A stretch of DNA of 64,000 nucleotides, from the NCBI RefSeq assembly GCF_040954645.1, contig NC_092809.1, positions 132,607,914 through 132,671,913 on the forward strand. Direction: 5' to 3'. Shown piece after piece: positions 7,622 to 50,939 of this stretch (position 1 is the stretch's first letter; every line of letters begins with the position of its first letter). The notes under the pieces were generated by a model. That model was not told the origin of the DNA. It saw nothing but the letters and a program-made list of their open reading frames with translations, and searched no databases. Source of the stretch: Diabrotica undecimpunctata. Its lineage: Eukaryota; Arthropoda; Insecta; Coleoptera; Chrysomelidae. The translations under genes were made by a program, and so were the position numbers.

Positions 7622-7654
7622 GTTGATCTACTCGTCACTATGAATGCAATATAT

Positions 7655-7938
7655 TGTTACGAACATGCTTTCGAGATGGCCCAGGTAACGGTTGCATTGC
7701 ATCTCTAATACCCTTCCAGAAGCTTCTCCGTGTATCGAGTGCGAGAGAGAACAACAGGTCACGTAGGCAAAATTAGAGGTGGGACAACTCCCGAATGTTC
7801 TGGAACTTAATACTTTTGGTATATATATGACGCGATTTTAGAAGTAGAGTTAGTTGATAAGAGAGTACCGAACTGTAAACTTATAAATAAATATATGTAT
7901 ATAAATTCGAACCGCTCGTTTTATTTAATCTCGCTACA
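7655..7938 (+). repeat. 5' LTR (284 bp)
   Basis: Begins tgttacgaac and ends ctcgctaca. It holds a TATA-like run (7820-7828) that may set transcription start, and AATAAA at 7886-7891 that may serve as the polyadenylation signal. By eye it matches 13065-13348 base for base. Confidence 0.95.
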
Positions 7939-7960: not shown

Positions 7961-8097
7961 AGAAATAAATTCAGCAATGACTTTTGAAAAAGACTTTTGA
8001 ACTTTTGAAAAGTATTGTTCGTCGGGAACATCCGCGTAGTTCGGTAGTGATCTTTGTACGAAAAGAACATTTAAAAGTACGTGTGTGCCTGACAAAG

Positions 8098-9501
8098 ATG
8101 CTGCTAGTAGAACTTTCAGTAAAACAGTTGCGTGAGCAACTAGAAGAACGCGATGAAGACTGCAGCGGGTCCAAAAAGATACTTCAAGAACGACTGAAGA
8201 CTGTTCTCAACAAGAATGGAGAAGACCCAGAGACATTCCAGTTCCAGTCAGCAGAAGAAGCAGTTTTAATTAAAATAAAAAATGTCTCGCAAATGATAGA
8301 AGAATCTTCTAAAAAAAATGATGAAAGATTCAATGAAACGTCTCAAATGATAGAAGAATCTTCTAAAAAAACTGATGATAAATTCGAGACTGTTTCCAAA
8401 AGATTCGATGAAACGTCTCAAATGATAGAAGAAACTTCTAAAAAAAATGATAGTAAATTTGAAAACGTTTCGCAAAAAATTGAAGAATCTTCTGGAAATA
8501 ATGATGAAAGATTCAATAAAACGTCTCAAATTAATAAAGAAATAGCTAGACAAAATGACGAGAAATTTGAAAATGTGTCTAGAAGATTCGACGAGACTTC
8601 TCAAATAATTAAAGAAGTATGTAATCAAAACAATGAGAAATTTGAAGAAGTCTCAAGAACATTCGATAACATACAGAAAAATGTAAACAATGTAGAAGAG
8701 AAGATCAAACAGTTAGAGAGCATGATAAATAATACAAAAGTGCTACCACCAGTTAATACAATAGCCTTAGAACCGGTAGTGAAAGAAGAATCACCTAGAG
8801 ACGAAACAACACATAATATGAGATTCAAATTGCCACCATTTGATGGAAAGTCTTCTTGGTCCATATACCTTAGACAATTTGAAGCTATTGCGACAGCCAA
8901 TCATTGGACAGAACAAGAAAAAGCTGTTTCCTTGACTGCTGCTTTACGAGGTGATGCTGCAGATATCCTAAGATCGATTCCTAAGGGTCAAGAAAAATGT
9001 TACCAGACCTTGTTTACCCGACTAGACAAACGTTATGGAGATGCCCATCTACAACAAGTCTACAAGGCGCAACTAAGAAGTAGAATTCAACGAGCAAGTG
9101 AAAATTTGCAAGAGTTTGAAGCAGATGTTGCTCGTATAGTGCGGTTGGCTTATCCGGAGGTACCAGACAACATTTTAGAAGAAATTGCTGTAGATACCTT
9201 CGTCAATGGGTTAAAACAAAGTGAATTACAGAAAGCTTTACGACTAGCAAGACCGAAAGTTCTAGATGAAGCGCTCGCTATTGCCTTGGAACATGAAACA
9301 GCTAGTCAAACTTCACGGAGTCATCGAGTAAGAACCATTGAAGAAGGCGACGAACCAAACGATGAACGTCTGGAAGAAATGGTACGAAAAGTAGTTCGTA
9401 ACACGATGCCGAAGAGACGCGAGCCCAGATGTTGGAATTGCGGTGACGTAGGTCATATTCGCCGTAATTGCAAGAAAATGATACAACAGTCGGAAAACTA
9501 G
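8098..9501 (+). CDS. gag: Gag protein of the Gypsy element (SAP-like, coiled coil, capsid, zinc knuckle)
   Basis: The frame is open upstream of 8098, but the first in-frame ATG is here, giving 467 residues. The start (LSVKQLREQLEERDEDCSGS) matches the SAP pattern of two helices and a Gly/Ser-rich turn, a motif for DNA or chromatin binding. From about 8281 to 8740 there are six or so degenerate repeats built on SQMIEESSKKND and FENVSRRFDET, predicting a long coiled coil. From about 8820 (FKLPPFDGKSSWSIYLRQF) a retrotransposon capsid-type domain follows. The C-terminal end carries CWNCGDVGHIRRNC (9430-9471), a CCHC nucleic-acid-binding knuckle. It would form the particle that packages the RNA. 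The stop overlaps the protease frame, which lies at -1, so a -1 frameshift is the likely route to Pol. No canonical slippery heptamer is obvious. Confidence 0.9.
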   Translation: MLLVELSVKQLREQLEERDEDCSGSKKILQERLKTVLNKNGEDPETFQFQSAEEAVLIKIKNVSQMIEESSKKNDERFNETSQMIEESSKKTDDKFETVSKRFDETSQMIEETSKKNDSKFENVSQKIEESSGNNDERFNKTSQINKEIARQNDEKFENVSRRFDETSQIIKEVCNQNNEKFEEVSRTFDNIQKNVNNVEEKIKQLESMINNTKVLPPVNTIALEPVVKEESPRDETTHNMRFKLPPFDGKSSWSIYLRQFEAIATANHWTEQEKAVSLTAALRGDAADILRSIPKGQEKCYQTLFTRLDKRYGDAHLQQVYKAQLRSRIQRASENLQEFEADVARIVRLAYPEVPDNILEEIAVDTFVNGLKQSELQKALRLARPKVLDEALAIALEHETASQTSRSHRVRTIEEGDEPNDERLEEMVRKVVRNTMPKRREPRCWNCGDVGHIRRNCKKMIQQSEN

Positions 9502-9734
9502 AACGGGTCGACAACAAGGGGCAACTGCCGACCTCGAGAAACACAGCCCCCATAGTAACTGTGAACATTACGTCCTCAGGTGGAATTCATAGCTTGTACA
9601 TAGAGGGTCGTATCAATAATAAATGTATATCGTTTTTGGTAGATACAGGTGCAACGAGAACTATTGCACGGCCAGAAGTAGTACGAGGCCATCTTAAATT
9701 ATTGCCTGCAACAGTAAAGCATAGTAAAGCATAA
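9468..9734 (+). pseudogene. Gypsy aspartic protease, truncated by a deletion
   Basis: This frame overlaps the end of gag by 34 bases at -1. It contains ISFLVDTGATRTI; the Asp-Thr-Gly active site (9642-9650) is intact. It then reads RPEVVRGHLKLLP and stops at 9732-9734. Gypsy elements normally have a longer protease and a linker of a few hundred bases before RT; here RT sequence begins immediately in another frame. The junction is a tandem 10-base repeat, agtaaagcat, at 9713-9722 and 9723-9732. The second half of protease and the linker are missing, so Gag-PR-RT cannot be read continuously. Confidence 0.85.
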
Positions 9735-9825: not shown

Positions 9826-12800
9826 ATGAACAAACAAGGGGTAATTGAACCATCAAACAGTCCATGGACATCACCAGTAGTCCTAGTAAAGAAGAAAGAT
9901 GGTTCAACACGTTTTTGTATTGACTACCGACAGCTCAATGCAGTAACTAAAAAAGATAGTTATCCTTTGCCCAGAATAGACGATACTTTGGATACACTTT
10001 CTGGTTCTCGTTGGTTCTCCACACTCGATCTGAAAAGTGGATATTGGCAAGTAGACATAGAGCCAGCTGATCGTGAAAAAACCGCATTCTCCATAGGATC
10101 AGGGCTTTGGCAGTTCACAGTTATGCCCTTTGGTTTATGTAATGCTCCGGCCACATTTGAAAGATTAATGGATGCAGTTTTAAGAGGTCTAACATGGAAA
10201 ACATGCCTGGTTTATTTGGATGATGTAATTGTAGTTGGAAGATCCTTCGATGAACATGCCAATAATCTATCAGAAGTTTTTCAACGATTGCGGGCAGCGA
10301 ATCTGAAGTTGAGTCCGAAGAAATGTCACTTGTTTCGACGAGAAGTGAAGTACTTGGGACATATTGTAGCAAGTAATGGTGTAACAGCTGATCCTGAAAA
10401 ACTTGCAGCAATTAAGGATTGGCCAATACCAAGAGATAAACACGAAATTAGAAGTTTTCTTGGCCTATGTACATATTACCGCCGTTTTGTCAAAGGATTT
10501 GCCAATATCTCCAAGCCATTAACAAAGTTGACAGAAGAAGGTAAAGAATATACATGGAGCGAAGAGTGTCAAAGAGCTTTTGAACACTTACAAGTGGCTC
10601 TGATCAGCGCACCGATTTTAAGCTACCCTAGACAGGCAGGAAAATTTGTGTTGGACACCGATGCAAGCAACAGTGCAATAGGAGCTGTTCTTTCCCAAAT
10701 CCAAGATGGGCAGGAGAAAGTCATCGCTTACTTTAGCAAAGTCTTGTCAAAACCAGAAAGAAACTATTGCGTTACCAGAAGAGAATTGCTAGGCGTAGTG
10801 AAGGCTTGTGAGCATTTCCATAAATACTTGTATGGCAGAAAGTTTCTCCTTCGCACGGATCACGCTGCTCTAAAATGGCTCCTACAATTTCGTAATCCAG
10901 AGGGCCAGATGGCAAGATGGTTAGAACGATTACAAGAATATGATTACGAGATCGAACACAGGGCTGGTAGAGTTCATTCCAATGCTGATGCCCTTTCGAG
11001 ACGACCGTGCAGTGCAAATTGTAATCACTGTCTTAAATTAGAAGAACGACTTTGCCCCGTGAGACGAACCACCGTCATTAATGAGCAATGGCAGCCTCAA
11101 CAGCTACAAGACGCTCAAGCAGATGATCCATGTATAAAAAGAGTATTGGATTGGATGCGTCGAAGTGAGAGACCTTCTTGGCAAGACATTAGTGCATGTA
11201 GTCCAGAAGTCAAGTGTTACTGGAGCCAATGGAATTGCCTAGTGCTGAAAGATGATCTTCTGTATAGAACCTTTGAGAACGATGATGGTACAGAAACTAA
11301 GCTTCAGTTAATTGTACCTAAAAGTAAAGTGTCAGAAGTATTGCGTCAGTTGCATGACGGTGCATCAGGTGGACACTTTGGTATCACGAAGACTCTGCAA
11401 AAGGTTCGAGAACGGTTCTATTGGGTGAACTGTAAAGATGATGTAAGAAGATGGTGCCGGAAATGTGAACTGTGTGCAACCAGTAATGGTCCAGCTGGTA
11501 AAAAGAGGGCACCCATGAGACAGTACAATGTTGGTAGTCCTATGGAAAGAGTAGCAATCGACATTGCAGGTCCACTTCCAGAGACAAATGATGGAAATAA
11601 ATATATCCTGGTAGCCATGGATTATTTTACGAAATGGACTGAGGCCTATGCGATACCAAATCAAGAAGCTGCTACCGTTGCAGAGGTACTTGTTAAAGAA
11701 TTCTTTAGCCGATTTGGTGTTCCTTTGGAGATCCACTCCGACCAAGGGCGAAACTTCGAGTCAACCCTTTTCCAAAACGTCTGTAAATTGATTGGTGTCA
11801 ATAAGACCAGAACGACACCCCTGCATCCTCAATCAGATGGAATGGTCGAGAGAATGAACCGAACAATGGGTAAACACCTGTCCAAAGTTGTATCGGAACA
11901 TCAAAGAGATTGGGACCAGCACATTCATTTATTCCTAATGGCCTACCGCTCGGCCGTGAATGAAACTACAGGCCAGACTCCAACCTGCCTGATGTTAGGT
12001 CGTGAAGTTCGTTTACCCTGCGACCTAGAGTTTGGCTGCAGACCTTCCGAAGAACATGTTGCAAGCGAAGATTATGTCGACCGCCTGAAGTTAAGAATGA
12101 ACAACATTCATGAACTTGCCCGACAACACATCCAGATAGCCAGTGACAGAATGAAAGATCAATATGATTCTCGATGCAAGAGTGAAAGCTATGAAGTAGG
12201 TGATCTTGTTTGGCTTTATAATCCGCAACGTCGTCGAGGCTTGTCTCCCAAACTGCAAAGACAATGGGAAGGTCTATATGAAATTAAAAAGAAAATAAAT
12301 GACGTAATATACCGAATTAAGAAGTTGCCGAAAGGTAAACCAAAAGTAGTTCACATAAATCGTCTTGCACCATATGCTGGCTCAAATGAAACAGAAGAAG
12401 CACGAACCCTTCAACATGAGATCAAAGATGACCGGCGACCAAGCTTTAATGAATTTATGTCAAATTACGCAGAGAGAAAGAGTGCTAGATTCGGCGTGAC
12501 CAGAGAAGTTCAGCAGGATCTTTTTAGGGTTCCGCATAACGTCTCTCTAGCCCACTGTGTTGCCCAAGATCTTGAGATGACTAAAGGAATCTCATCTGTA
12601 TTTTATAAGAAATTCGGTCGTTTGGACGAGTTAAAAAACCAGCAGCCTAAAGTTGGAAGAGTACTGAGATTAAAAGATGGTTCTCGATCTTTGCTGTATA
12701 TGGTGACCAGGAAGTCGTATACAGACAGGGCAAGCTACGAGGATATATGGCGTGCTCTAACTAATTTGAAGAAAATTGTGTGCAATTACGACATCAAGAA

Positions 12801-13053
12801 TTTGGCCTTACCCAAGATAGGTCATGCACTAGATAATCTGGACTGGAAGATTGTCAGAAGCATGCTTGAAGTGATCTTCCGAGAAACCGGCGTAGGAATT
12901 ACTGTGTGTTGCATTAACCCGATGAAATCGTATCCTTCAAAGTCAGTGGACTGTTATTTCTTTCTAAAGGGTTCATGCAGAGCTGGAGAGTCCTGTAGAT
13001 TCCGCCATCCTGTGCCTACATATAGAGTTGCTGATCGGGACGGTCAGATTTAA
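9826..13053 (+). CDS. pol: Gypsy Pol: RT, RNase H, integrase, macrodomain, CCCH finger
   Basis: The frame is open from about 9735; numbering is from the first Met (1075 residues). RT starts at WTSPVVLVKKKDG, with the catalytic Y130-L-D-D133. RNase H has D279, E320 and D345. Integrase has a zinc domain with H510, H517, C547 and C550, then the catalytic triad D579, D639 and E675 (D-X35-E). A GPY/F-like segment lies near W814-EGLY. A normal Gypsy Pol would end soon after this, or carry a chromodomain. Here about 60 further residues lead into a macrodomain (about 890-1032) and a CCCH finger (1043-1061). All catalytic residues of RT, RNase H and integrase are present and there are no stops. Expression is doubtful because the upstream protease frame is out of register. 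Position 9826 is simply the first Met, not a proven start. Confidence 0.93.
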   Translation: MNKQGVIEPSNSPWTSPVVLVKKKDGSTRFCIDYRQLNAVTKKDSYPLPRIDDTLDTLSGSRWFSTLDLKSGYWQVDIEPADREKTAFSIGSGLWQFTVMPFGLCNAPATFERLMDAVLRGLTWKTCLVYLDDVIVVGRSFDEHANNLSEVFQRLRAANLKLSPKKCHLFRREVKYLGHIVASNGVTADPEKLAAIKDWPIPRDKHEIRSFLGLCTYYRRFVKGFANISKPLTKLTEEGKEYTWSEECQRAFEHLQVALISAPILSYPRQAGKFVLDTDASNSAIGAVLSQIQDGQEKVIAYFSKVLSKPERNYCVTRRELLGVVKACEHFHKYLYGRKFLLRTDHAALKWLLQFRNPEGQMARWLERLQEYDYEIEHRAGRVHSNADALSRRPCSANCNHCLKLEERLCPVRRTTVINEQWQPQQLQDAQADDPCIKRVLDWMRRSERPSWQDISACSPEVKCYWSQWNCLVLKDDLLYRTFENDDGTETKLQLIVPKSKVSEVLRQLHDGASGGHFGITKTLQKVRERFYWVNCKDDVRRWCRKCELCATSNGPAGKKRAPMRQYNVGSPMERVAIDIAGPLPETNDGNKYILVAMDYFTKWTEAYAIPNQEAATVAEVLVKEFFSRFGVPLEIHSDQGRNFESTLFQNVCKLIGVNKTRTTPLHPQSDGMVERMNRTMGKHLSKVVSEHQRDWDQHIHLFLMAYRSAVNETTGQTPTCLMLGREVRLPCDLEFGCRPSEEHVASEDYVDRLKLRMNNIHELARQHIQIASDRMKDQYDSRCKSESYEVGDLVWLYNPQRRRGLSPKLQRQWEGLYEIKKKINDVIYRIKKLPKGKPKVVHINRLAPYAGSNETEEARTLQHEIKDDRRPSFNEFMSNYAERKSARFGVTREVQQDLFRVPHNVSLAHCVAQDLEMTKGISSVFYKKFGRLDELKNQQPKVGRVLRLKDGSRSLLYMVTRKSYTDRASYEDIWRALTNLKKIVCNYDIKNLALPKIGHALDNLDWKIVRSMLEVIFRETGVGITVCCINPMKSYPSKSVDCYFFLKGSCRAGESCRFRHPVPTYRVADRDGQI
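12493..13011 (+). other. TARG1/OARD1-like macrodomain plus CCCH zinc finger at the end of Pol
   Basis: Seen: from residue 890 of Pol the sequence reads QQDLFRVPHNVSLAHC, AQDLEMTKGISSVFYKKFG, VTRKSYTDRASYEDI, LALPKIGHALDNLDW and TGVGITVCCI, ending at about residue 1032. This is the motif order of the TARG1 (OARD1) class of macrodomains, which bind ADP-ribose and remove it from acidic residues and nucleic-acid ends. The resolving Asp of that family matches D1003. The catalytic Lys matches the R962-K963 pair; by my recalled alignment it falls on the Arg, so activity is uncertain. A CCCH finger follows (C1043-X7-C1051-X5-C1057-X3-H1061), usually RNA-binding. There is no intron or stop between integrase and these domains. 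Inferred role: removal of host ADP-ribosylation from element proteins or nucleic acids. Confidence 0.88.
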
Positions 13054-13064
13054 GAGGGGAGCAG
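13052..13064 (+). promoter_or_regulatory. Polypurine tract
   Basis: aagaggggagcag lies between the pol stop codon and the 3' LTR. It is the expected plus-strand DNA primer site. Confidence 0.85.
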
Positions 13065-13345
13065 TGTTACGAACATGCTTTCGAGATGGCCCAGGTAACG
13101 GTTGCATTGCATCTCTAATACCCTTCCAGAAGCTTCTCCGTGTATCGAGTGCGAGAGAGAACAACAGGTCACGTAGGCAAAATTAGAGGTGGGACAACTC
13201 CCGAATGTTCTGGAACTTAATACTTTTGGTATATATATGACGCGATTTTAGAAGTAGAGTTAGTTGATAAGAGAGTACCGAACTGTAAACTTATAAATAA
13301 ATATATGTATATAAATTCGAACCGCTCGTTTTATTTAATCTCGCT

Positions 13346-13348
<3 letters not shown>
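13065..13348 (+). repeat. 3' LTR (284 bp)
   Basis: Same length and, by eye, the same sequence as 7655-7938. AATAAA at 13296-13301. It is followed at once by an (AT)n tract, so the element probably inserted into an AT-rich simple repeat. Confidence 0.95.

Positions 13349-13414
<66 letters not shown>
13349..13414. repeat. (AT)n microsatellite
   Basis: About 33 uninterrupted AT units immediately right of the 3' LTR, ending in gtgtgtatgtg. Confidence 0.98.
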
Positions 13415-13420
<6 letters not shown>

Positions 13421-13576
13421 ATGTGTAACAAAGAAGCACCCATTAAAAATACTCCTTATGGGGAATACAGTCTTAAGCGTTGCCACAAAGGATTTCATAA
13501 TGCCTGTCGCATTCGTTGACGAAATTTCAAAAAGAAGTCTTTCTAGATCGGATTTTAAGCTTTACATATTTGACAT

Positions 13577-15302
13577 ATTCTATAAGAAAGTTAACATCAA
13601 CAGAAAAGAATTTAAGGCAAACACAAATCAATGTAGAAGTTTAAATGGCGATCTCTTAACAACAAGAACAGACGTACTAAACCGATGGACGGAATATTTT
13701 AACCAGATACTTAATATAGAGGAAGAAGAAAACCCGGAAGACGAAAGCTGCGAGGTAAGCGGAGCAGACGAGAGGGAGGAGGATCCACCAACGATCCTGG
13801 AAGTTAAAGACGCTGTAAACAAACTAGCCAGAAACAAATCACCCGGAATAGATAATCTCCCAGCGGAATTATATAAAGAAGGTGGCCACGATATCATAAT
13901 AGCCCTACAGCAGCTTATAAAAGAAATATGGATACAGAAGTCCCTTCCCAATGATTGGAATATTGGAATACTTTGCACCATACACAAAAAGGGTGATATC
14001 TTTGAATGCTCTAACTATCGAGGAATTACGCTCCTAAATGCAGCGTATAAAATATTCTCCAATATACTATGCCATCGTATGGCACCATATGCAGAGCGAA
14101 TAATAGGACAATACCAGGCTGGTTTCAGAGGTGGTAAATCAACAATTCATCAGATTTCAACCCTAAGACAAATTCTAGAGAAAACACTGGAATACGGTGT
14201 AGACACGCACCACATATTTATAGACTACAAGGCAGCCTACGACTCTGTAAATAGAAGAGAATTGTTTAGAGCAATGATAGACCTAGGAGTACCAAATCAG
14301 TTGGTAAGTTTAACCAAACTAACCCTTGAAAAAGTTGAATGCAAAGTACGAATCCAGGGGGAACTCTCTGAACCTTTTAAAACAAATAACGGGCTACGTC
14401 AGGGAGACCCACTCTCCTGTATACTTTTTAATCTAGCTCTGGAAAAAGTAATACGTACGTCACAAATCACAACTACCGGTTCAATATATAACAAATCTGT
14501 GCAAATCTTAGCATATGCTGATGATATCAATATTGTTGGGAGAACGGAAAACGCAGCACGAGAGGCGTACGTAGCATTAAAGGAAGCGGCTACAAAAATG
14601 GGTTTAATAATAAACACCAACAAAACAAAATACATGAAAATAAGTACGCAACCACAAACACTACGGCCACTTGTTATAGAAAATGACGTCATCGAAGCAG
14701 TTAACGAATTTGTATACCTGGGAACGCTCGTCAATACTGAAAATGACACTACCGCAGAGATAAACCGCAGAATTTGCACGGCTAATAGATGCTATTTTGG
14801 GCTTAATCTCCTTTTTAAATCTACAGTTATATCAAGAAATACAAAAGTAAAACTCTACAAAACAATAATACGCCCAGTCCTAACATATGGTTCAGAAACC
14901 TGGACTTTAACAAAAAGCAATGAAAACATGTTAGGATGTTTCGAAAGAAAAATACTAAGGCGCATCTATGGAGCGGTAAATGAAAATGGTGTCTGGAGAA
15001 GACGATACAACTTCGAACTCTATAGGATATACCAGGAACCAGATATCGTAAAACACATAAAGATAGGACGTCTGAGGTGGGTAGGCCATGTTATGCGGAT
15101 GGAGCAAACCGACCCAGCTAGAAAAACGCTCCTTGATAGACCTATTGGTCAAAGAAGAAGAGGAAGACCCAGAACAAGATTCCTAGATAACATCGATGAA
15201 GACATGAGAAATATGGAAATACGTGCTTGGCGGAGGAAGGCGATGGATAGGGACGACTGGAGAAAAATTCTTGGGGAGGCTAGGACCCACACAGGGTTGT
15301 AG
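13577..15302 (+). CDS. LINE reverse transcriptase ORF, 5'-truncated but free of stops
   Basis: The frame is open across the whole insertion and ends at TAG 15300-15302. In order it shows NKSPGIDNLPAELYKEGG, NYRGITLLNAAYKIFS, YQAGFRGGKSTIHQI, FIDYKAAYDSVNR, GLRQGDPLSCILFNLALE and the catalytic YADD (14514-14525), then the thumb and a C-terminal part with VLTYGSETWTL, RLRWVGHVMRM and QRRRGRPRTRF. The last motif group is common to many arthropod LINEs and is probably nucleic-acid binding. The frame continues upstream into LTR and AT-repeat sequence by chance; that part is not protein. The clade (RTE-like or a relative) is not fixed. The intact frame suggests a fairly young copy, but without its endonuclease it cannot move by itself. 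Confidence 0.9.
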
Positions 15303-29284: not shown

Positions 29285-30943
29285 CTTCTTCAAGTGCCAT
29301 CTTCGTTCCGAAGGTTGGCGATCATCAGGGCTATACGTATTTTCGAAACTGCTGACCGAAACAATTCGTTCCTGCTACAGCTATACCATTCCCGTAGATT
29401 CTTTAGCCAGGAGTTTTGTCTTCTTCCTATGGACCTTTTTCCTGCTATTTTCCCTTGCATAATTATTCGAAGCAGTTCATATCTTTCGCCTCTTGTAATG
29501 TGTCCCAAGTATTGCAGTTTTCGTTTTTTGATCGTAAATATGACTTCCTTTTCTTTATTCATTCTTCTCAAGACCTCGACATTTGTGACTCTCTCGGTCC
29601 ATGATATTCTCAGGATTCTGCGATACATCCACAGTTCAAATGCCTCTAATTTTTTGGTATCAATCTTTTTCAACGTCCATGACTCCATTCCGTAGAACAG
29701 CACAGAAAGTACGTAACATCTCATCAGGCGAAGTTTCATTTCAAGGCTCAAATCTCTTCCGCAGAACACTCTCTTCATTTTAGTGAATATGGATCTGGCT
29801 TTTTCTATTCTTATTTTGATTTCTGCTGAGCTATCGTTGTCTTCATTTATAAAAGTGCCTAAATATTTGTATTTGCTAACTCGATCGATAATTTCATTGT
29901 GTAAATATAAATTTTGGACATTTTGTGTTGATTTCGATATTACCATAAATTTAGTTTTCCATATGTTCAAAGATAGTTCATATTCTTCGCTGTAGTCTGC
30001 TATCTTATTCACCAATGTCTGTAGCTCTTCAAGTGTTTCTGCGATCAGAACGGTGTCGTCGGCAAATCTCAGATTGTTTAATCTAACACTATTTATTTTA
30101 ATACCTACGGATTGCTCAGAGAGTGTTCTATTCATTACGTCTTCGGAATAGAGATTAAACAGGGTTGGTGACAGTATACACCCTTGTCTCACACCTCGCT
30201 TTATTTCGATTTCTTCAGTGGTATTATTCTCTACTCTCACTACTGCTTTCTGATTGTAGTACATATTTGCTATTAGTCGGATGTCTCGTTTATCTAAATT
30301 CTTTTCTGTCAGGAGTCTGATTAGGTGATCATGCCGCACTTTATCAAAGGCCTTGTTGTAATCTATGAAACACATGAATACATCTTGATTTATGTCAAGA
30401 CATCTTTGAGACATAACGTTCAGTGCAAACAACGCCTCTCTTGTTCCAAGTCCATTTCGGAATCCAAACTGGGTATTATTGATGTCCATTTCCAGTTTTC
30501 TGTGTACTCTAGAGTGTATAATTTTCAGAAATATTTTCAGTACATGGCTCATCAGACTGATTGTACGGTAATCACTGCATTGTTTGGCATTTATCTTTTT
30601 TGGTATAGTAACAAAGGTGGATAAAAGCCATTCTTGTGGTATTTTTCCTGATGTATAAATGCTATTGAAAAGTTTAACCAAAATGTGAATCGAGTCTTTT
30701 TCTATTAGTTTAAGGATTTCCGTTGGTATTTCATCTGGACCTGGGGCTTTACCATTTTTCATTCTTTTTAGTGCGTACATTACTTCTTCTTCCGTTATTT
30801 CTGGACCTTCGTCTCCTTGTATGTTACTTAGCTCAGATTGTTGTCTATCATCTGCAAAGAGTTCTTCAATATAGTTTTTCCATGTCTTCAACTGTTCTTC
30901 TAGTTCTGTTATTATGTTTCCGTTGACATTATACAGGGTCATA
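29285..30943 (-). mobile_element. 5'-truncated RTE-like LINE with (GAA)n tail
   Basis: Perfect 12-bp target duplications, cctcacctattt, lie at 29273-29284 and 30944-30955. The 3' tail on the minus strand is gaagaagaaa. It interrupts the LINE at 27860-32480. Confidence 0.92.
29290..30942 (-). CDS. LINE reverse transcriptase ORF, 5'-truncated, no stops
   Basis: The 550-residue open frame shows MKNGKAPGPDEIPTEILKL, DYRTISLMSHVLKIFLKII, FGFRNGLGTREALFALN, MCFIDYNKAFDKVRHDHL, GVRQGCILSPTLFNLYSE and FADD (30055-30066), then VLSVLFYGMESWTLKK, RRILRISWTERVTN and LQYLGHITRG. It ends IANLRNEDGT. This is the RTE/BovB-like pattern and is collinear with the fragment at 3600-4693. The endonuclease is missing. 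The first Met only happens to lie at the truncation. The intact frame and perfect target duplication suggest a young insertion. Confidence 0.92.
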   Translation of the reverse strand: MTLYNVNGNIITELEEQLKTWKNYIEELFADDRQQSELSNIQGDEGPEITEEEVMYALKRMKNGKAPGPDEIPTEILKLIEKDSIHILVKLFNSIYTSGKIPQEWLLSTFVTIPKKINAKQCSDYRTISLMSHVLKIFLKIIHSRVHRKLEMDINNTQFGFRNGLGTREALFALNVMSQRCLDINQDVFMCFIDYNKAFDKVRHDHLIRLLTEKNLDKRDIRLIANMYYNQKAVVRVENNTTEEIEIKRGVRQGCILSPTLFNLYSEDVMNRTLSEQSVGIKINSVRLNNLRFADDTVLIAETLEELQTLVNKIADYSEEYELSLNIWKTKFMVISKSTQNVQNLYLHNEIIDRVSKYKYLGTFINEDNDSSAEIKIRIEKARSIFTKMKRVFCGRDLSLEMKLRLMRCYVLSVLFYGMESWTLKKIDTKKLEAFELWMYRRILRISWTERVTNVEVLRRMNKEKEVIFTIKKRKLQYLGHITRGERYELLRIIMQGKIAGKRSIGRRQNSWLKNLREWYSCSRNELFRSAVSKIRIALMIANLRNEDGT

Positions 30944-49677: not shown

Positions 49678-50509
49678 ATATATATATATTTAGGGATTCT
49701 ACAGTATTCACTGCCTTCCCTCGCTCAACCGTTTCCATCTCTCTCTGTTGTTCCATTCTCCATCGTTTAGTCCTCTCTTACTCATGGCGTCGTCTACTTC
49801 GTTCTTCCAGGATTTTCGGGGTCGTCCTCTTTTCCTCCTTCCTATGGGGCTCCATTCGGTTATTCTTTTTATCCATCTGCTGTCGCTAGCTCTTCTTACA
49901 TGTCCATACCACTTTAGTCTTTTTTGTTCTATATATGTTAGTATGTCTGTTTCTATTGATGTTCTTTGCTTTATTTCGTCATTACTTCTCCTATCCATTC
50001 TTGTTACTCTGCAGCATCTTCGCAGGCATTCCATCTCTGTTGCTATTATCTTACTGCTGTTTTTCTTGTTTATGATCCAATTTTCGGCCCCATATGTCAT
50101 AATACTTCGCACTAATGTTTTATAAATCTGCGTTTTTGTCTTCATATTTAGGTGTCTATCCCACCATACTGAGTTAAGTTGTCGGATTGCTGTTCTTGTT
50201 TGTCCTAATCTTTGTGTAATTTCTTCCTCTGTTGTTGCCTTTTTCGTGATTATAAACCCCAGGTATTTGAATTTATCCTTTCCTTTGATTGTTACGTTGT
50301 CATCAATCTGTAGATCTTCTATGTCTTCTTCACTTGTAGATAGGTACTCTGTTTTCGCGAGGTTAATATCTAGGCCAGCCTTGGTATATTCTTCTTGTAG
50401 TTTCTTCATCATGTAGCTGAGGTCGTCTTGGTCTTGTGCAATCACTACTTGATCGTCTGCAAAACTTAACGTATATAGGTATTCGTTCCGTACCGGTACT
50501 CCTATGCGT
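49678..50509 (-). mobile_element. (TA)n-tailed LINE family, copy 4
   Basis: A perfect 11-bp duplication, tcaaccaaagt, lies at 49667-49677 and 50510-50520. The (TA)n tail is short. It interrupts the DUF7869-like pseudogene. Confidence 0.93.
49708..50509 (-). CDS. LINE C-terminal ORF of copy 4
   Basis: Open for the whole insertion, ending SEGRQ and a stop at 49708-49710. It reads VPVRNEYLYTLSFADDQVVI (with the catalytic FADD), [91 protein letters not shown] and [18 protein letters not shown]. The best-preserved copy of the family in the window, but 5'-truncated within RT, so not autonomous. Confidence 0.9.
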
Positions 50510-50939
50510 TCAACCAAAGTTCCGCGTTCTAATGGAGTTAACTAAATATCTCAAGAATCCTCTTAATAAAGAAGTTTATTTTTATCTAGAACCAAAATCC
50601 GGGGAAACCAAGGACCATACTTCAGTCGTAGAACTATTTAGCGATGATAATAGCAGGGTGGCGAATAGACATCATAGAATTTTGTGCTATTTCTACGAGG
50701 ATATTTTATATGTTCATTTTCCAATATGTTTTGCTAAGCTGTTACCGATTTTTGTTTAAAATATCAATAAGAATATAAAATCGACTTCTACTTTTATTTT
50801 TATATCCACATTCCTTCCAATGAATATCTTAGTAAAAGTTAGGTTTGAAACAAATTGAAGCTGGGCAGTTTTTCTTGATTTGCCAAAATTTTAATTTTTG
50901 GAGTGAATTTTTAAGTGTTGTTTTTTAAATAAACGGTTT

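Follow-up and report, generated by a model that had tools for sequence, protein, structure and literature searches.

A TARG1-class macrodomain and CCCH zinc finger fused behind the integrase of a Gypsy retrotransposon in Diabrotica and other beetles

What would an ADP-ribose-handling domain do at the end of a retrotransposon polyprotein? The question is raised by a 64,000-nucleotide stretch of the Diabrotica undecimpunctata genome (hereafter the window), which harbors an element that, judged by its pair of long terminal repeats (LTRs), short target-site duplication and order of pol domains, is a Ty3/Gypsy LTR retrotransposon. An initial annotation had proposed that the Pol frame of this element continues past integrase into a TARG1/OARD1-type macrodomain and a CCCH zinc finger, and that the element captured a host hydrolase and uses it to strip ADP-ribose. 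ADP-ribosylation serves as a signal both in antiviral defense and on chromatin, and RNA viruses are known to employ macrodomains. On balance, we lean toward a role in which the TARG1-homologous macrodomain and CCCH finger at the C-terminus of Pol, fused behind integrase, allow the integrase complex to recognize ADP-ribosylated host protein or DNA.

Identity of the module at the Pol C-terminus

Piecewise Pfam searches of the Pol open frame recovered, in order, reverse transcriptase (RT), RNase H, H2C2, integrase core, p58_C, linker, macrodomain and CCCH finger, confirming the in-frame fusion with integrase. The match of the Pfam Macro model to window Pol (E 0.015) is too weak alone, and we therefore used PDB sequences and fold comparison. 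In the former, residues 35-169 of the query aligned with residues 13-147 of 2eee at E 5.7e-28, establishing homology over the full domain, which is 35-40% identical to human TARG1. A first structure model built from a nine-row alignment was poor (predicted local distance difference test, pLDDT, 55.8) and Foldseek nevertheless ranked TARG1 first; an alignment of 38 rows gave a good model of the macrodomain, in which the minimal macro fold is present. The sequence match and predicted fold together bear out the TARG1-class assignment. For the finger, we asked for both C-x7/8-C-x5-C-x3-H spacing and a profile match, and the window copy has both, with zf-CCCH matching at E 1.3e-05 (25.5 bits against a cut-off of 20.5), as the initial annotation had it. 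A chance motif was considered and rejected on the homology search, the fold match, the copies and the relatives.

Distribution of the module within and beyond D. undecimpunctata

To gauge how widely the fusion occurs, we searched the 1.74-Gb D. undecimpunctata assembly, in which the window occupies G000:C7:132607914-132671913, and scored 150 places among 6069 first-look candidates. All 150 carried module copies at 95-100% identity, and in 148 of them the macrodomain-finger stretch lacks an inner stop. We read out 60 distinct places (71 loci minus 11 duplicates of the same genomic place); the macrodomain is stop-free in 57 and the finger spacing C-x7-C-x5-C-x3-H is kept in 59. The element family is high-copy in this species.

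Beyond this genome, a protein search with the integrase-plus-module piece returned one match, P0009 of D. virgifera. From three protein searches, the third of which used human TARG1, P0006 and P0007 as queries (all with Lys84) and contributed the best 120 of 5229 matches, we picked 35 outside element proteins, 24 of them with a species name; rows of the third search were chosen by eye for an insect or unnamed source and an integrase domain or element-like tail. Named rows fall in eight genera, all of them Coleoptera of the suborder Polyphaga, with both Cucujiformia and Elateriformia represented: Chrysomelidae (Diabrotica, Gonioctena), Cerambycidae (Aromia, Exocentrus, Molorchus), Nitidulidae (Brassicogethes), Coccinellidae (Harmonia) and Lampyridae (Pyrocoelia). 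Sequence derived from integrase accompanies the module in 21 of the 35 proteins, which come from four families and seven genera; in the Pyrocoelia row it amounts to 24 residues only, and the Brassicogethes model is the module alone. With the window included, Integrase_p58_C matched 20 of 36 rows and Macro 23 of 36 (E<=0.01), and the exact finger is present in 28 of 36; among the eight misses, the first cysteine is absent in two and six end or shift before completion. The rows are not independent, since 10 of the 35 come from Aromia moschata. One of these, P0039 (513 aa), combines gag-like sequence (PF03732), macrodomain and finger with no integrase match, and probably reflects an internal deletion or an error of the gene model.

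These counts dispose of the idea that the fusion is a one-off chimera or assembly error, which we regard as refuted: the family was read at 60 distinct places and scored at 150, eight beetle genera have homologous modules, joined in seven of them to integrase sequence in one protein, and nothing speaks in its favor. The initial annotation had staked its reading on a macrodomain match and fold and on the presence of the fusion in other copies; all of these were found, and the module is a trait shared by several beetle families, with a ratio of nonsynonymous to synonymous substitution rates (dN/dS) below 1 in Diabrotica.

Origin of the macrodomain

We next examined where the domain came from using an unrooted tree of 41 domains, from which 12 of 53 rows (fragments and near-duplicates) had been removed. 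The 26 element rows fall on one side of a branch with support of 95/88, and a branch supported at 99/97 separates the elements together with L031, the host TARG1 gene of Diabrotica, from the remaining hosts. A second, smaller tree, with 26 of the 53 domain rows removed, was concordant (95/93 and 99/91). No inner branch within the element clade is longer than the Diabrotica stem (0.81). These topologies suggest a likely single capture from an insect host gene, short of proof, so that the capture of a host domain proposed in the initial annotation probably stands, although its reading of that domain as an active hydrolase in Diabrotica is unsupported in view of the arginine at position 84 described below.

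L031 (G000:C3:100933792-100934691) is itself a TARG1 homologue with an unbroken 760-aa frame and a long N-terminal part; its first macrodomain is followed by another that is degenerate, and the cockroach protein P0113 has the same two-domain layout. The 'ADP-ribose glycohydrolase OARD1-like' protein P0003 (NCBI) matches locus L043 (G000:C8:128837550) at 100% identity, next to which lie remnants of the LTR and integrase of a divergent relative of this element; P0003 is consequently likely a transposon piece rather than the host gene. Diabrotica genes annotated 'OARD1-like' can thus be transposon pieces.

Catalytic positions separate Diabrotica from other beetle lineages

TARG1 hydrolyzes Asp/Glu-linked ADP-ribose and acts on nucleic-acid ends (PMC7050489), and its catalysis proceeds via Lys84 and Asp125 by a proposed mechanism in which the lysine amine is the nucleophile (PMC9411070, PMC7050489). 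Position 125 is printed as Glu125 in PMC7050489, but the letter in the human sequence is D. SCO6735, an ALC1-class protein, hydrolyzes with neither residue of the TARG1 dyad and uses Gln85 (PMC9411070).

All non-Diabrotica element rows except the fragment P0008 cover position 84, and these 29 all have lysine there, as do 17 of 17 host rows; this is a tally of a sample found with Lys84-bearing queries in which other R84 lineages have possibly been missed. Asp125 is present in 30 of 30 non-Diabrotica element rows. In contrast to TARG1 and the other sampled beetle elements, position 84 is arginine in six of six Diabrotica rows and at 60 of 60 D. undecimpunctata places. Position 125 is Asp at 55 of these places, the window copy included, and Glu at five; the five other Diabrotica rows have Glu (four) or Val (one, D. 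balteata). Loop 122-123 reads HA at 59 of 60 places, the other elements having mostly CG or SG. Position 85 is Lys in six of six Diabrotica rows and 69 of 71 loci, duplicates counted, and many other invariant positions are retained. A further own-genome search with the Lys84-type query P0007 scored 150 of 5345 candidates by identity; its best matches were 52-55% identical, and many of the places coincide with those of the earlier module and P0003 searches.

Most sampled beetle elements thus probably carry an eraser, and for the sampled lineages outside Diabrotica, with their lysine and aspartate, erasing is the more convincing interpretation. For the window element itself, the proposal that it strips ADP-ribose fares poorly: arginine stands at position 84 in every sequence read, and position 125 and the neighboring loop have drifted, all while constraint is kept. 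Judged from these residues, the Diabrotica domain is more probably a reader of ADP-ribose, or else an enzyme whose chemistry has changed.

Selective constraint in Diabrotica

Whether the altered domain is still in use was addressed through dN/dS, obtained from pairwise counts with a codon bootstrap over distinct sequences, leaving out stop-bearing loci and L043; integrase was covered in 47 of 71 loci. The macrodomain gave 0.163 (95% interval 0.087-0.296; n=47 distinct sequences) and integrase 0.143 (0.098-0.214; n=35). As these values are close, the macrodomain is held about as firmly as integrase. The finger (0.232, 0.062-0.858; n=12) and linker (0.490, 0.183-2.678; n=20) have wide intervals, and the constraint on the linker is uncertain. 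In a first run on 41 loci, the values were 0.219 (macrodomain), 0.126 (integrase) and 0.544 (finger with its tail).

One could also see the Diabrotica domain as a passenger that was once captured, now lacks a function and is decaying, which would fit its long branch, its accelerated change and the replacement of Lys84. We disfavor this explanation as very improbable, given a macrodomain dN/dS near that of integrase, a macrodomain-finger stretch free of stops in 148 of 150 scored copies and an adjoining linker that is looser (0.49, wide interval).

A proposed role for the fusion

In the sequence of events that we propose, a Gypsy element would have acquired a host TARG1 domain once and placed it at the end of integrase, where chromoviruses have their chromodomain, so that the module could travel with integrase into the nucleus. 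In lineages with Lys84 and Asp125, it would remove ADP-ribose that host poly(ADP-ribose) polymerases (PARPs) deposit on integrase, cDNA ends or chromatin. The Diabrotica eraser has likely turned into a reader or docking module, since its fold and other conserved positions have been maintained despite the missing catalytic lysine. The finger would contribute binding of RNA or another nucleic acid. Both copia and gypsy accumulate PARP-1 in Drosophila, and a minor-groove drug that displaces PARP-1 raises their mRNA (PMC3964218). A broader version, which we put forward tentatively and with less confidence than the recognition role alone, is that a beetle-wide Gypsy clade took up the host eraser TARG1 once and attached it to integrase as a means of reversing or exploiting the marks that PARPs leave on chromatin and DNA ends, that in Diabrotica it became a reader docking the integration complex, and that this is the first ADP-ribosylation module known in a retroelement.

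Several observations weigh against these proposals. The approximately unbiased test does not firmly reject a grouping of the beetle host row with the cockroach one (p-AU 0.059), L031 is a long branch and the sole beetle host row in the tree, and the window domain, 39% identical to that of L031 over 136 residues, is no closer to it than to human TARG1. Travel into the nucleus holds only provided that the module is still joined to integrase after proteolysis. The HA at loop 122-123 could itself weaken ADP-ribose binding, the model of the finger is of low confidence (pLDDT blocks about 47-61), and the dN/dS values pertain to Diabrotica copies alone. Lastly, since ALC1-class enzymes such as SCO6735 can work without the Lys/Asp dyad, Arg84 is no proof of lost activity.

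This last point opens an alternative in which the Diabrotica domain is still an eraser, of altered chemistry, with Arg84 or the neighboring Lys85 substituting for Lys84 much as SCO6735 employs Gln85. Lys85 is found in six of six Diabrotica rows and 69 of 71 loci, SCO6735 hydrolyzes without the TARG1 dyad (PMC9411070), and a dN/dS of 0.163 indicates continued use. We nonetheless find it rather unlikely, as position 125 drifts to Glu or Val, loop 122-123 is changed, the Diabrotica branch is long (0.81) and the mechanism proposed for TARG1 requires the lysine amine as nucleophile (PMC9411070, PMC7050489).

Alternatively, the module could block host PARPs or related factors by binding them, leaving ADP-ribose untouched, with the finger serving RNA packaging. 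There is precedent in a comparison of inactive DarG, TARG1 and SCO6735 for inhibition of DarT by interaction, in which SCO6735 was strongest (PMC9411070), and in Diabrotica the catalytic residues are changed while constraint persists. Family-conserved positions are retained, however, and we judge this explanation improbable. Recognition of ADP-ribose by the integrase complex remains the reading we prefer. The beetle elements offer a natural experiment, in which relatives that keep Lys84 can be set against a successful Diabrotica family whose lysine is lost and whose domain is constrained, and they make it directly testable whether insect retrotransposons are restricted by host PARPs.

Relation to known systems

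TARG1/OARD1 (C6orf130) belongs to the ALC1-like class; the beetle domain differs from it in forming one protein with the integrase of a retrotransposon and a CCCH finger. An architectural parallel is found in chromoviruses, whose chromodomain sits at the C-terminus of integrase. That chromodomain interacts with histone marks and steers integration to heterochromatin (PMC9289625). Both cases add a host-type chromatin-signal domain to pol, but the beetle element has an ADP-ribose domain and CCCH finger, and no chromodomain was found after integrase among Pfam matches up to E 0.1. Phalaenopsis Gypsy elements with an AlkB RNA demethylase are similar in that an enzyme domain of a reversible modification system was captured and fixed in a lineage; they differ in that the orchid domain is a separate open reading frame encoding an RNA m6A demethylase of demonstrated activity (PMC9289625).

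Macrodomains of RNA viruses, such as alphavirus nsP3 and those of coronaviruses, are MacroD-type with a different mechanism (PMC7050489), whereas the beetle domain is TARG1-class. The best viral fold match is the TARG1-like macrodomain of Kadipiro virus VP8 (BFVD A0A8E0KJF2; predicted fold E 2.3e-16, 36% identity), which belongs to a Seadornavirus (Reovirales). Scans of IMG/VR and GTDB genomes returned one TARG1-like match each (36% and 30%). The former, L073 (578-994 of a 79-kb viral contig), is 36% identical to the beetle elements and has no RT, RNase H or integrase match near it in the contig stretch examined; the stretch examined around the GTDB match likewise holds none of the three. We found no description of a macrodomain fused to a retrotransposon integrase in the literature listings searched (bioRxiv and most subscription papers being outside their coverage), and the words 'macro' and 'ADP-ribose' are both absent from a paper on Diabrotica repeats (PMC8982398). 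Captured domains in Gypsy elements are already known; as far as can be seen, capture of a macrodomain is new.

Architecture of the window element and its surroundings

The features of the window copy are collected in Table 1. Its two LTRs are identical at 284 of 284 nt and ATAT flanks both; the LTR identity indicates a recent insertion. In this copy, the protease piece and RT do not share a frame.

Table 1. Features of the retrotransposon in window coordinates
Feature	Position	Strand	Basis or remark
Target-site duplication ATAT, 5' side	7651..7654		
5' LTR, TG...CA, 284 nt	7655..7938	+	LTR pair
gag-like frame: SAP, repeat-built middle, Retrotrans_gag, CCHC knuckle	7984..9501	+	TTG is the listed start; true start may differ
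Short aspartic-protease piece, DTGA motif	9546..9731	+	gag-asp_proteas E 3.8e-05, below family cut-off
Pol open frame, 1075 aa	9826..13053	+	Pfam, sequence searched piecewise
Integrase p58 C-terminal domain (PF22938)	12277..12372	+	E 1.3e-10
Integrase-macrodomain linker, constraint uncertain	12373..12492	+	dN/dS 0.49 (0.18-2.68)
TARG1/OARD1-class macrodomain	12493..12912	+	Arg at TARG1 Lys84 position, Asp at 125
CCCH zinc finger C-x7-C-x5-C-x3-H	12952..13008	+	Profile and spacing
Purine-rich tract, one C, stop to 3' LTR	13054..13064	+	Sequence
3' LTR, 284 nt	13065..13348	+	LTR pair
Target-site duplication ATAT, 3' side, begins (AT)33 run	13349..13352		

Across own-genome copies, the tetramer adjoining the LTR has TA at positions 2-3 in 54 of 54 distinct 3' flanks and is ATAT in 33 of them, with (AT)n runs in five. 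This is a strict sequence preference at the insertion site and is uninformative on the macrodomain. In the gag-like frame, the SAP domain matches at E 1.2e-05 and imperfect repeats with periods of 54, 75, 108 and 183 nt lie mid-frame, a combination of SAP domain and repeat-built middle that is, to our knowledge, unusual for gag. Elsewhere in the window, RVT_1 frames without integrase at 13305-15302, 29290-30942 and 49708-50517 are probably long interspersed nuclear elements, the first of which crosses the (AT)33 run at the 3' side of the element.

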